DNA of 64,000 bases from Buttiauxella agrestis (GTDB taxonomy: Bacteria; Pseudomonadota; Gammaproteobacteria; Enterobacterales; Enterobacteriaceae), in contig NZ_UIGI01000001.1 of NCBI RefSeq assembly GCF_900446255.1, positions 3,684,763-3,748,762 of the forward strand. The letters run 5' to 3'. How positions within the stretch are numbered: position 1 is the first letter of the stretch; each line of letters starts with the position of its first letter. Under the pieces are notes generated by a model that ran no database searches, had not been told where the DNA came from, and was given only the letters and a program-made list of their open reading frames with translations. Shown in pieces: positions 838 through 7,341 of the stretch. Position numbers and translations under genes: made by a program.

Positions 838-2943
838 TTAATGCGCGCTCTTCGCCTGCACCACAATTTGCTCAACGTCTTCCGGCATCTTCTCGTAAGG
901 CGTTTCCTTCGCGGTTGGCGTGTCCGATTTCAGCGCCTGCATGGCGGTTTTAATCGCAAACAGACCAATCACCACCACAACCACCATAAAGAAGATGGTC
1001 AGCCCGGCATCCAGACGGTTGTTGAACACCAGTTGCGATAGCTGTGACTCGGTGTACTGCGCCGGGATTTTGCCGCTGTCGATCATGGCCTGGAATTTGT
1101 TAGCGATAGCCAGGAAGCCTACTTTTGCATCCGGGCTGAACGCTTTTTGCCAGCCCGCCGTCAAGGTACAGATCAGCAACCACGCGGTTGGCACCAGCGC
1201 CACCCAGGCGTATTTCTGCTTCTTCATCTTGAACAGCACAACAGCGCACAGCATCAGAGCCATACCCGCCAGCATCTGGTTGGCGATACCAAACAGCGGC
1301 CACAGGGTGTTAATCCCGCCGAGCGGATCAACCACGCCCTGGTGCAGGAAGTAACCCCACGCCATTACGCAAAGTGCCGTCGCCAGCAAGTTTGCAGGCA
1401 GCGAGTCAGTCCGTTTAAGCCCCGGCGAGATAACACCCAGCAAGTCTTGCAGCATAAAGCGCGCCGCACGCGTACCCGCATCGACCGCCGTCAGAATAAA
1501 CAGCGCTTCAAACAGAATGGCGAAGTGATACCAGAACGACACATCCATCAGGCCGCCCAGCGCCCCGTGCAGAATGTACGCCATCCCGACCGCAAGCGTT
1601 GGTGCGCCACCCGCACGTGAAATAATGCTCTGTTCTCCCACGTCGTTGGCAATGTTGGTTAAGGTTTCAGGGGTAATATGGAAGCCCCAACTGCTGACTA
1701 CGCCTGCCGCAGAAGCCACAACATCCACGGTACCCGCCGGAGCCAGAACCGCCAGTGGGCTGTTCATCGCGAAGTAAACGCCTGGGTCGATAACACAAGC
1801 CGCCACCAGCGCCATAATCGCCACAAACGATTCCATCAACATGCCGCCGTAACCGATGAAGCAAGCCTGGTTTTCATTAGCCAGCATCTTCGGCGTGGTG
1901 CCAGACGCGATCAGCGCGTGGAAGCCCGAAACCGCGCCGCACGCGATGGTGATAAATAGGAACGGGAACAAATCGCCGGTCCAGACCGGGCCGGTGCCAT
2001 CAATGAACTTGGTCAACGAAGGCATTTGCAGCGTCGGACGCATAATTAAAATGCCAATCGCCAGGCCGATAATGGTGCCGATTTTCAGGAAGGTAGAGAG
2101 GTAATCACGCGGTGCAAGCAGCAGCCAGACCGGCAATACCGCCGCCACAAAACCGTAGCCCACCAGCATCCAGGTCAGTTGCACGCCGGTAAAGTCGAAG
2201 TACGGCGCCCAGGTTTCGCTTTCGGCTACCCAACCGCCGGAGATAATCGCAAAGATCAGCATCACCAGGCCAATTACCGACACTTCGCCAATGCGGCCAG
2301 GGCGCAGGTAACGGATGTAGACGCCCATAAACAGCGCCAGCGGAATGGTAAACGCCACGGTGTACGTGCCCCACGGGCTGTGAGTCAGCGCTTTCACCAC
2401 GATCATCGCCAGCACCGCGAGGATGATAACCATGATCATGAAACAGGCCACCAGCGCGATGACGCCCGCGGTGTTGCCCATCTCTTCTTTGACCAGTTCG
2501 CCCAACGAGCGCCCATCACGGCGTGTCGAGACAAACAGCACCATAAAATCTTGTACCGCACCGGCCAACACCACACCCGCCAGCAGCCAGAGCATGCCTG
2601 GCAAATACCCCATTTGCGCGGCAAGCACCGGCCCGACGAGCGGCCCTGCCCCCGCAATCGCAGCAAAATGGTGACCGAACAGCACTTTCTTGTCGGTCGG
2701 AACATAGTCCAGCCCGTCATTATGGCGCACGGCTGGCGTCATACGAGTGGCATCAACGGTTAAGACTCGTTTAGCGATAAACAAGCCGTAGTAACGATAA
2801 GCGATGAGGTAGACGCAGATTGCAGCAACCACAATCCATAATGCGTTTATCTGTTCGCCACGATTGAGTGCGATATAACCGAGCGCGAATGCACCAATCA
2901 GTGCAAGCACAGCCCATATGAGGTGTTTCCCTGGATTATTCAT
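838..2943 (-). CDS. cstA: Pyruvate/peptide transporter CstA (carbon-starvation protein A)
   Basis: A 701-residue polytopic inner-membrane protein, exactly the length of E. coli CstA and close to it throughout. An N-terminal hydrophobic helix is followed by the hallmark HHFAAIAGAGPLVGPVLA segment (about 91-108) and many further membrane spans; the C-terminus is charged. CstA was first described as a starvation-induced peptide transporter and has since been shown to take up pyruvate. BtsT is the paralogue, but length and sequence here favour CstA. It heads an apparent operon cstA-ybdD-GTPase. In E. coli the gene is controlled by cAMP-CRP; only a weak CRP-like match is visible upstream. Confidence 0.97.
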   Translation of the reverse strand: MNNPGKHLIWAVLALIGAFALGYIALNRGEQINALWIVVAAICVYLIAYRYYGLFIAKRVLTVDATRMTPAVRHNDGLDYVPTDKKVLFGHHFAAIAGAGPLVGPVLAAQMGYLPGMLWLLAGVVLAGAVQDFMVLFVSTRRDGRSLGELVKEEMGNTAGVIALVACFMIMVIILAVLAMIVVKALTHSPWGTYTVAFTIPLALFMGVYIRYLRPGRIGEVSVIGLVMLIFAIISGGWVAESETWAPYFDFTGVQLTWMLVGYGFVAAVLPVWLLLAPRDYLSTFLKIGTIIGLAIGILIMRPTLQMPSLTKFIDGTGPVWTGDLFPFLFITIACGAVSGFHALIASGTTPKMLANENQACFIGYGGMLMESFVAIMALVAACVIDPGVYFAMNSPLAVLAPAGTVDVVASAAGVVSSWGFHITPETLTNIANDVGEQSIISRAGGAPTLAVGMAYILHGALGGLMDVSFWYHFAILFEALFILTAVDAGTRAARFMLQDLLGVISPGLKRTDSLPANLLATALCVMAWGYFLHQGVVDPLGGINTLWPLFGIANQMLAGMALMLCAVVLFKMKKQKYAWVALVPTAWLLICTLTAGWQKAFSPDAKVGFLAIANKFQAMIDSGKIPAQYTESQLSQLVFNNRLDAGLTIFFMVVVVVIGLFAIKTAMQALKSDTPTAKETPYEKMPEDVEQIVVQAKSAH

Positions 2944-2982
2944 CTTTGTTTTCCATGTGTAGACCAGAAGCAGAGGTGTTAC

Positions 2983-3004
2983 CGATTTGTTCTAGATCAA
3001 GCAC
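2983..3004 (-). promoter_or_regulatory. Weak CRP-like site upstream of cstA
   Basis: The centre ctagatca matches the core of the CRP consensus, but over 22 positions only about 13 agree and the TGTGA/TCACA half sites are each imperfect. The site lies some 40-60 bases upstream of the cstA ATG. CRP control of cstA is known in E. coli, so the site is plausible, but the sequence alone does not prove it. Confidence 0.3.
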
Positions 3005-3117
3005 GTGGATTTAACAATATTGAAACGAGAGAATGGAGTGGTTTGACCAGGGATTTACATCAGCTTGTTAAGGGGATCACGATGCTGTGATGGTTATACC
3101 ATTGCTTGATAGGTGAT

Positions 3118-3665
3118 GGTTCCGTTCACCTGGCGTTCAGTGTTCCCAGGAATTACCGAAACGGTGAACGCACAAAGGGTGCTACCGCAGCACCCTTTGC
3201 AATCCCGGCTCCCGGCGTTTAAATCGCCGCTTCGCGGTAAACCTCCGTTTTTCCTTTCAGTCCCTGGGTCGGTTGCGACGCGCTCCCGGCGCTCACAACC
3301 TCTCGCCGTTCCCGACGGCTCGACCCGGCCTTCCAGTCAAAACGGAGGCGATTTATGCCGGACTCAAAGGTCAACGTCAAAAGCTAAGGTCAAAAGCCGA
3401 ACCGGTTTTGACCTTGTCCCCGGTATAAATTGCCCCGGTGTTCCCCATAAGTCAGGGTTGAGCTGCCGTCCGCCGTGAAAGTGAGCGATCGCCGGGAGCG
3501 AATCGCGAACGACCCTGAACGTTGGGGATAAGCTGGGGTTTACCGCGTAGCGGCAATTTAATCACCGGGCGACGGGGTCGCCAGGGGGATGTCGTTATCC
3601 CACTGGCACGTTCACCGTTTTCGGGAATGAAAGAGATAACTGAACGCACGGGTGAACGGAAAACC
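3118..3665. repeat. 0.55-kb imperfect palindrome (foldback/MITE-like element)
   Basis: Almost the whole cstA-entH gap is one long inverted repeat with its dyad axis near 3390.5. Matched blocks are co-linear around that axis: ttccgttcacc at 3120-3130 with its complement at 3651-3661; a 33-bp block at 3211-3243 with 3537-3569 (3-4 mismatches); cgctcccggcg at 3281-3291 with 3490-3500; gcgatttatgccgg at 3348-3361 with 3420-3433 (few mismatches). In each pair the outer coordinates sum to 6780-6781. Close to the centre is a hairpin with 10-bp arms (3386-3395/3406-3415). A separate perfect 11-bp stem (3173-3183/3189-3199) occurs only in the left arm. I see no transposase, no clear target duplication and no credible gene. 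I do not recognise the family; a non-autonomous mobile repeat is the best guess. Confidence 0.85.
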
Positions 3666-3683
3666 TCCGGCTTACAATAAGCT

Positions 3684-5724: not shown

Positions 5725-7341
5725 TCAGGAAGCCAGTTGCTTATCAGCAATCAACTGGCGCAAACGTTTTTTGTCCACTTTGCCCACCGCAGTCAGCGGC
5801 AGGTTTTCAACGATTTCAATGCGATCGGGCAGTTTGAAGTCCGCAATGCCGAGCTCACGCAGATAACGGCGAATCTCTACGGCGCGGAACGGGCGCAGGC
5901 CGACGATAAACGCGCAGCTTTTCTCGCCCAGCAGGCTGTCTTCCATCGAAACCAGCGCGGCATGAACGATCTCTTCGTGGCGCAGTAACAGGTTTTCGAT
6001 CTCTTCAGCGGCGATCTTTTCTCCGCCACGGTTGATCTGATCTTTCTCGCGCCCCTGAACCGTGATGTAGCCGTCTTCGGCAATCGAAATCAGATCGCCC
6101 GAGCAGTAGAAACCGTTGGCATCAAAGGCGCTGGCGTTGTGCTCCGGGCTGCGGTAATAGCCACGGAAGGTGTACGGCCCGCGCGTCATCAGGCGGCCCA
6201 CTTTGCCGTGCGGCAATGCATTCCCGTTTTCATCTGCCACCCAAACTTCGTCGTCCGGGCACATCGGTACACCCTGGGTTTTGAAGATGTGCTCATTGTC
6301 GTCATCCAGGCGCGTGTAGTTCACCAGCCCTTCCGCCATGCCGAAAACTTGCTGTAGCCGGCAGCCGATTTCAGCAGGAATACGAGCGGCCAGCGCTTCG
6401 CTTAAACGTGCGCCGCCCACTTGCAACAGTTCTAATGATTCGAGGGATTTATTGCTGCCCCACTCGCCAATCGCTTGCAGCCACAGACTGACAGCAGGCG
6501 GTACCAGCGCGGTGACGTTTATCTGGTGGCGTTCAATCAGCGGGAAGCAGAGCGTCGCGCTCGGGTCGTTTGCCAGCACCACGCGCCCGCCGCCGTAAAA
6601 GACGCCCAGCGAACCCGGCGAACTCAGCGCGTAGTTATGCGCCGCGGGAATCGCGCACAGGAAGCGGGTATGGGCATCAAAACGGCAGATTTCTACGCTG
6701 CGGCGAATGCTGTAGTAGTAATCGTTGTGCGTGCGTGGAATCAGTTTTGGCGTGCCGGTGCTGCCGCCGGAAAGCTGGAAGAAAGCCACTTCGTCAGCCG
6801 CCGATGGGGTGGCGACAAAGTTCTCTTCCGGCTCGCCGATCAATGCGCTCAGCGAACGTTCGCGATCGTTTTCATTGAGCAATACCGCCATACGCAGCGA
6901 GGGATTTTGTTGGCACAGCGCATCAAGGAAATCATCGTGGGCGAACAAATTGTGTTTGCGATCGGCGATCACCACCGCCGGTTCGATTTGGCGGGCATAC
7001 GCTTCCATTTCAGTGCGCTGATGGCTGAACAACGCGTTCACCGGAGCCACGCCAATTTTCAGCAACGCAAACAGCGTGATGTACAACTCAGCCACGTTGC
7101 CCAACTGCACCAGCGCGGTTTCGCCATTGCTCAGGCCGCGTCGTTTTAGCGCACACGCCAGGCGAGTGGCGGCCAGTTCCAGCTCGCGGTAGCTGTAATG
7201 GCGCTCACCTTCAATTAACGCAATCGCGTCATTTTTGGCCTGGCGGGTGAGAATATCGGTCAGCGGCAAATCCGCCCAGTAGCCTTTTTCGCGGTAGTGG
7301 GCGGCCAGGTCATCCGGCCAGCGGGTAAATTCGATAGCCAT
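5725..7341 (-). CDS. entE: 2,3-dihydroxybenzoate-AMP ligase EntE
   Basis: A stand-alone adenylation enzyme of 538 residues (E. coli 536) that activates 2,3-DHB with ATP and transfers it to the EntB carrier domain. The P-loop-like core motif [10 protein letters not shown] lies at residues 191-200. The later A-domain motifs YCSGDL and [14 protein letters not shown] are present, and the catalytic lysine is in [10 protein letters not shown] near the C-terminus. Its ATG directly abuts the entC stop, so entC and entE have no spacer. Confidence 0.97.

Follow-up and report, generated by a model that had tools for sequence, protein, structure and literature searches.

The element described here lies between cstA and entH in a 64,000-nucleotide stretch of the Buttiauxella agrestis genome (the window), to which all coordinates without a locus name refer. 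The features that we assign at this locus are as follows.

cstA, gene flanking the element: starts 2943, minus strand
Whole element, imperfect 0.55-kb palindrome: 3118..3665, no strand (inverted repeats, folding z, absence at the same gap in relatives)
Left unit, in RNA sense: 3119..3379, minus (model R1 match 3201-3362, 103 bits, E 1.3e-23; outer hairpins)
H4, terminal hairpin of left unit (GTTCACC/GGTGAAC): 3119..3170, minus (inverted repeats, fold)
H3, GC-rich hairpin of left unit: 3173..3199, minus (11/11 pairs)
GGA in hairpin 2 loop (CGGGA), left unit: 3284..3286, minus (fold)
GGA in hairpin 1 loop (CGGGA), left unit: 3310..3312, minus (fold)
Centre between the units, 56 bp: 3363..3418, no strand (own small hairpin 3386-3395/3406-3415)
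Right unit, in RNA sense: 3400..3661, plus (model R1 match 3419-3579, 75 bits, E 6.2e-17)
GGA in hairpin 2, right unit: 3495..3497, plus (fold)
H3, GC-rich hairpin of right unit: 3580..3607, plus (fold)
H4, terminal hairpin of right unit: 3609..3661, plus (inverted repeats, fold)
Inverted repeat: 3193-3254/3526-3587, 62 nt, 77%
Inverted repeat: 3133-3161/3619-3647, 29 nt, 72%
Inverted repeat: 3159-3170/3609-3620, 12/12 matched
Inverted repeat: 3120-3130/3651-3661, 11/11 matched
entH, gene flanking the element: ends 3684, minus strand

The palindrome is a pair of outward-facing units

The symmetry about a single axis that had been read from the letters of this locus (the original prediction) is real: the nested inverted repeats share a common axis with coordinate sums of 6779-6781, and 3110-3670 folds as RNA at an energy far below that of dinucleotide shuffles (z of -14.7 and -12.1 on the two strands), none of 100 shuffles folding as low on either strand. 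The two arms are 71% identical across 263 aligned positions with 22 gap positions. Shuffling the arms in 3-base blocks with gapped alignment (n=50) gave a mean of 0.63 and a best of 0.73 against the observed 0.71, and we base the palindrome on the inverted repeats and the dinucleotide-shuffle folding, not on these arm shuffles. It consists of two back-to-back copies of a structured unit of ~260 bp that face outward. The covariance model R1, built from 22 units of which none came from the window and two came from Buttiauxella sp. A111, matched exactly these two units in the 64 kb at E up to 1, and nothing else. In the fold of the right unit hairpin 1 carries no GGA. A perfect H3 stem of 8 bp or more is present in 72 of the 80 named loci listed, with 28 different arms; a fold of a 121-nt stretch in which H3 and H4 mispair with the outer stem was left aside.

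The claim of one continuous foldback did not survive, as the window element is an inverted dimer in which each homologous unit folds alone, and single units exist elsewhere (the E. coli locus L097, and Enterobacter). Across 39 mixed-type dimers the two halves of the same copy were 0.676 identical, compared with 0.686 for halves of different copies, and 0.96 of permutations reached the observed own-copy mean; halves of the same type in these dimers were 0.79-0.80 identical. Because the arms of one copy do not co-evolve we reject a continuous foldback, and the long palindrome is therefore a by-product of the head-to-head arrangement. Judged by these identities, the dimer halves are old paralogues on separate evolutionary paths. 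Outward facing is the rule for neighbouring unit pairs (36 of 39, from 60 sources), the other three lying between dimers of the L227 tandem array, and it holds in all 40 dimers of the Buttiauxella set, where the gap between units is 36-137 bp. The array itself (L227 of genome G023, 1019-3100) holds seven units whose orientation alternates, spaced at a period of ~640 bp.

One strand of the unit is selected to fold

A multi-helix fold is shared by 70 distinct units: an outer stem, an inner stem and two neighbouring hairpins, with a small hairpin preceding the 3' side of the outer stem, followed by the GC-rich H3 and then by H4 (GTTCAC/GTGAAC). These units came from 71 of the 80 loci listed, and omission of four as misaligned (L143, L145, L148 and L139) left a 66-row alignment; a further 40 listed loci (L179-L218) contributed names only, two of them also the end analysis. 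Covariation over 99 R1 matches was strong, at 0.445, compared with 0.144 for shuffles and 0.04-0.07 for slid partners, with none of 500 shuffles as high and both sides varying in 34 of 41 pairs; in the 96 units of the Buttiauxella set alone it was 0.310 versus 0.121. Pair counts from the alignments A2 and A3, which were fitted to the model, lean towards it; in the unfitted alignment (66 rows) at least two Watson-Crick types occur at 26 of 49 strand-neutral pairs.

We did not use an initial wobble count made on strand-specific structures, since a structure chosen for one strand is biased towards that strand. When only strand-neutral pairs are used, the unfitted 66 rows have 73 wobble cells on the sense strand and 8 on the other, and a more diverse set (47 pairs; 60 of the 99 rows, once those exceeding 25 gaps and those 90% or more identical to a retained row had been removed) has 58 versus 27, with 22 versus 17 pairs showing any wobble cell. 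Selection has maintained the fold of the ~260-nt unit in one of its two strands. It is one strand that folds, and wobble asymmetry cannot tell RNA from single-stranded DNA; a structured RNA, raised as a possibility in the original prediction, is likely.

The element is an insertion at cstA-entH

As had been proposed from the far shorter gap in E. coli, the element is an insertion, the cstA-entH gap being 740 bp in the window and thus longer than in 11 of 12 Buttiauxella genomes (161-332 bp); it is 252 bp in G001, the nearest genome compared (98% identity over 586 bp of flank), and 879 bp in G003. Of these 12 genomes one has the full element at this site (G003), two have short remnants (G004 and G008) and nine lack it. 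No target duplication was seen by eye around the window copy. What occupies the gap of G001 in place of the element is presumably a REP-type repeat.

Which repeats occupy the same gap (window 2944-3683, L031-L042) varies from one Buttiauxella genome to another; CCCTCACCC/GGGAGAGGG-type repeats are present in, e.g., G005, G011 and G012, and the gap resembles a landing site for intergenic repeats. The short versions in G004 (L033) and G008 (L040) are ~50-110 bp long and comprise the outer hairpins only, that of G008 in reverse orientation. The G004 version could have arisen by deletion between GGTGAACG direct repeats; alternatively, both could represent a short form of the element family. Units of ~236-238 nt in the model match occur at L034 (G003, the same site), L018, L060, L061 and L062, and an additional segment of the G003 copy contains a GTCACAGGGATGTGAC hairpin, whose ANGGAN loop is lost from the usual Buttiauxella units.

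A dispersed repeat family of the Enterobacteriaceae

A search of related genomes, the check suggested with the original prediction, returned many copies at varied sites with empty sites in relatives, so that the sequence is a dispersed intergenic repeat with copies at many places and not a structure confined to this locus; as had also been noted, the element has no transposase of its own. A DNA search finds it in 14 of 40 relatives and in all but one of 12 Buttiauxella genomes, and G009 alone has it at 35 separate places, counting fragments. Weak DNA matches were found in 17 of 5,426 E. coli genomes and in one of 72,556 plasmid records, a Citrobacter plasmid. The E. coli locus examined has one unit, between mmuM and tauA, and the Citrobacter plasmid an inverted unit pair, between torD and yeiP; it was through these weak matches that the element was seen to be composed of units. 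A plasmid or phage origin was considered and rejected, with that single plasmid record and none of the phage records matching the element.

A pattern scan of named genomes gave at least 120 stretches, and the matches listed include Enterobacter, Leclercia, Lelliottia, Silvania, Citrobacter, Phytobacter, Pseudescherichia, Superficieibacter, Atlantibacter, Huaxiibacter, Entomohabitans and Buttiauxella. R1 matched 48 of 149 Enterobacteriaceae genomes sampled across the family and 12 of 197 genomes across the order, five of those 12 outside Enterobacteriaceae; at most 19 (family) and 14 (order) candidates were scored per genome, and numbers per genome are lower bounds. With a simple ORF finder, the 80 loci listed divide into 32 convergent, 6 divergent and 23 tandem settings, with 19 left without assignment, and the tandem settings split 13 to 10 by strand, i.e. 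without strand preference.

At the curated thresholds of Rfam 15 there was no match in the window or in L097, L098, L027 and L012, and at E up to 10 weak matches stayed at chance level (0.97, 5.5). The unit was also unmatched in 10 further loci, where the sole match was Ysr251 in L107; this was discarded as an identity for the unit since it sits thousands of bases from it, in a stretch whose reading frame we take to be PhoH-like. A description of the unit was not found in the open-access literature searched. There is thus a structured, covarying unit in about one third of the Enterobacteriaceae genomes sampled that has no Rfam match in the loci searched.

Some copies carry transposon-like ends

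In E. hormaechei DSM 14563, ends similar to CTGAGGG(A/T)(A/T)CCCC flank 12 of 13 loci on both sides, 427-429 bp apart, and in the Buttiauxella set CTGTCTCTTATACACA-like ends occur on both sides of 11 of 31 elements and at one end only in 6 (up to three mismatches allowed per end). Exact 9-bp duplications accompany 4 of the 12 two-ended E. hormaechei loci and 2 of the 11 two-ended Buttiauxella elements, with 8 of 9 positions matched in one more of each. We take these mobilising ends to resemble those of IS50 and IS10; the letters of the IS10 end were not found in open-access literature. Both kinds are absent from the window copy, where the IS50-like one was sought within 110 bp of the core; it is an eroded copy without transposon-like ends. 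Since the mobilised ends lie outside the unit and vary between hosts, the unit looks like a passenger. No autonomous partner was found in G009, where by eye 23 of 23 matches of a 16-base end adjoin copies of the element, and the Tn5-type transposase family PF02281 gave no match in 12 Buttiauxella genomes, a search in which the control was equally silent.

The insertions in E. hormaechei are inside CCCTCTCCC/GGGAGAGGG dyads. The two kinds of ended vehicles, from Enterobacter and Buttiauxella, are found in the same dyad repeats (L105, L108, L113, L121 and other E. hormaechei loci; L047-L059), and palindromic repeats act here as targets for other mobile repeats.

Two conserved GGA loops per unit

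Outside Buttiauxella, the loops of the two neighbouring hairpins contain GGA in 45 of 45 (hairpin 1) and 43 of 45 (hairpin 2) non-redundant units, with ANGGA in 41 of 45 for hairpin 1 and ANGGA or CAGGA in 41 of 45 for hairpin 2. Over 60 units the ANGGA count per unit is 2.02 in sense, 0.17 in antisense and 0.87 in mononucleotide shuffles; units of L229 (G092, of another genus, with Buttiauxella-like loops) are grouped here with Buttiauxella (15 units) and not with the other 45. In the 66-row alignment the A and GGA of the loops are 95-100% conserved and the two N positions 64-76%, while stem pairs exchange. Among 93 distinct Buttiauxella units GGA is kept in 88 in each hairpin, and the A before NGGA is kept in one (hairpin 1) and in none (hairpin 2). 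The product of csrA is encoded once per genome in 7 of 7 genomes, with differences only near the C-terminus. A scan of the element gave neither a promoter nor a terminator consensus, and one promoter-like site was located beyond it, at 2963-2935.

Discussion

Taken together, our folding, covariation and distribution data describe a mobile family whose unit folds as one strand and, outside Buttiauxella, displays several GGA hairpin loops of the consensus kind expected of a CsrA sponge. In the excerpted sources, the SELEX consensus for CsrA is RUACARGGAUGU, mostly in six-base loops, and the RsmE complex has an ANGGAN hexaloop (PMC7652899), with hairpins of CsrA sites generally paired (PMC4383904) and affinity strongly dependent on loop context (PMC4005645). 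It is because the paired, conserved GGA loops match this published site that we propose a mobile CsrA-binding RNA, acting as a CsrA decoy or as a platform at 3' ends; we infer its transcription and CsrA binding, and we regard it as the best explanation, tentatively and with a confidence a little short of even. Transcription would either read through into the unit from an adjacent gene or start at a promoter that our scan did not pick up, and the RNA of the unit would present two adjacent GGA hairpin loops to dimeric CsrA; numerous copies could then act as a CsrA decoy, or could recruit CsrA to mRNA 3' ends. Counted against this are the loss of the A in Buttiauxella, the lack of GGA in hairpin 1 of the right window unit, the even split between strands in tandem settings, the lack of an internal promoter or terminator consensus, and a wobble asymmetry that fits single-stranded DNA as well as RNA and is weaker in the more diverse set. 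For the window copy itself, CsrA binding is expected to be weaker or altered because Buttiauxella loops are CGGGA and not ANGGAN.

A less probable reading keeps the same mobile structured RNA and has it act in cis, as part of a 3' UTR that alters the stability of the neighbouring mRNA without CsrA, either as an RNase substrate or by blocking 3' exonucleases, as has been suggested for the YPAL and ERIC repeats. The excess of convergent over divergent settings (32 versus 6 of the 80 loci listed, by simple ORF finder) and the very stable folds speak for it, as does the statement in excerpts of PMC2229807 that YPAL might affect upstream transcript stability and that ERIC does so in Yersinia. However, a barrier hairpin requires neither fixed loop letters nor a complex multi-helix fold nor a strand preference, and the unit has all of these.

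It is improbable, more so than action in cis, that the fold works at the level of DNA, with a single strand exposed in replication or transposition being recognised by a transposase or repair enzyme and RNA uninvolved. Single-stranded DNA likewise tolerates G-T mismatches, which accommodates the strand asymmetry, and copies are mobile by their ends and duplications; however, the mobilised ends are external to the unit and vary with the host, and this reading leaves the paired ANGGAN loops unexplained. Finally, a half-kilobase foldback element kept as one long palindrome, the main reading in the original prediction, could draw on the 71% identity of its arms and on folding far below shuffles, but in the 39 mixed dimers the halves of a copy resemble each other no more than they resemble halves of other copies, single units occur, and with Buttiauxella itself already contradicting it we consider it very improbable.

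Returning to the CsrA-binding RNA, it has a wider version in which mobile enterobacterial repeats, namely this family and YPAL, by convergence or deep descent, are travelling cassettes of CsrA sites, and this we offer as a speculation with the chances clearly against it. Transposition would spread paired GGA hairpins, titrating CsrA or bringing new genes into the CsrA regulon, and the CGGGA variant of Buttiauxella would be one in which both loops were altered together. If CsrA were bound, mobile repeats would supply new CsrA control, and the long-standing puzzle of repeat function would be reducible to one binding assay.

Comparison with known systems

The closest known family that we found is YPAL/RU-2 of Yersinia, which is similarly dispersed between genes and carries two adjacent ANGGAN hairpins inside a long stem. 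The RU-2 sequence as printed in the excerpted part of PMC2759123 folds with two ANGGAN hairpins inside a longer stem, and 7 of 8 RU-2-like loci have two ANGGAN motifs 23-24 nt apart, although these loci are not independent, since they were chosen by likeness to RU-2. In the present family this arrangement is found outside Buttiauxella, the window copy having CGGGA loops instead. Dyad symmetries are reported as YPAL targets (PMC2229807, in excerpt), and the present family shows the same in E. hormaechei. YPAL is a single short unit of ~168 bp, with duplications of 3-26 bp reported in the same excerpts, whereas the present family has ~260 nt per unit, is often an outward dimer and has 9-bp duplications in copies with ends. 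Membership in YPAL is not supported, because R1 fails to recognise eight YPAL-like loci even with filters off (best E 0.18); a DNA search with RU-2 likewise gave no match in G001 and G003 at E 1e-5. YPAL-like stretches with paired ANGGAN motifs occur at L275-L282 in several Enterobacterales families, and genus g165 (G266 and G338) carries both these and the present family, at different places. The two families may have a similar mode of action. CsrA is unmentioned in the excerpted YPAL accounts of PMC2229807 and PMC5193452.

With regard to mobility, the family is a dispersed, non-autonomous intergenic element and hence a MITE in the wide sense, having many copies, empty sites, and ends and duplications in some members. 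It resembles IS4-type MITEs in the flanking IS50-like or IS10-like ends and 9-bp duplications of some copies and differs from them in that the window copy has no MITE-type ends. ERIC/RU-1 and BIME/REP are likewise dispersed, palindromic, intergenic and enterobacterial in the excerpts of PMC2759123 and PMC2229807, the latter giving ERIC as 127 bp with TA termini; a likeness in sequence or fold to ERIC or BIME was not noticed, on informal comparison.

With CsrB/CsrC/RsmY-type RNAs the unit shares its paired GGA hairpin loops and the ANGGAN hexaloop, as far as the excerpted accounts describe them. It differs in being multi-copy and mobile, in having no Rfam match and no promoter or terminator consensus, and in that its transcription is presumed. 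Moreover, CsrB has many loop sites, as opposed to two in each unit of the present family.
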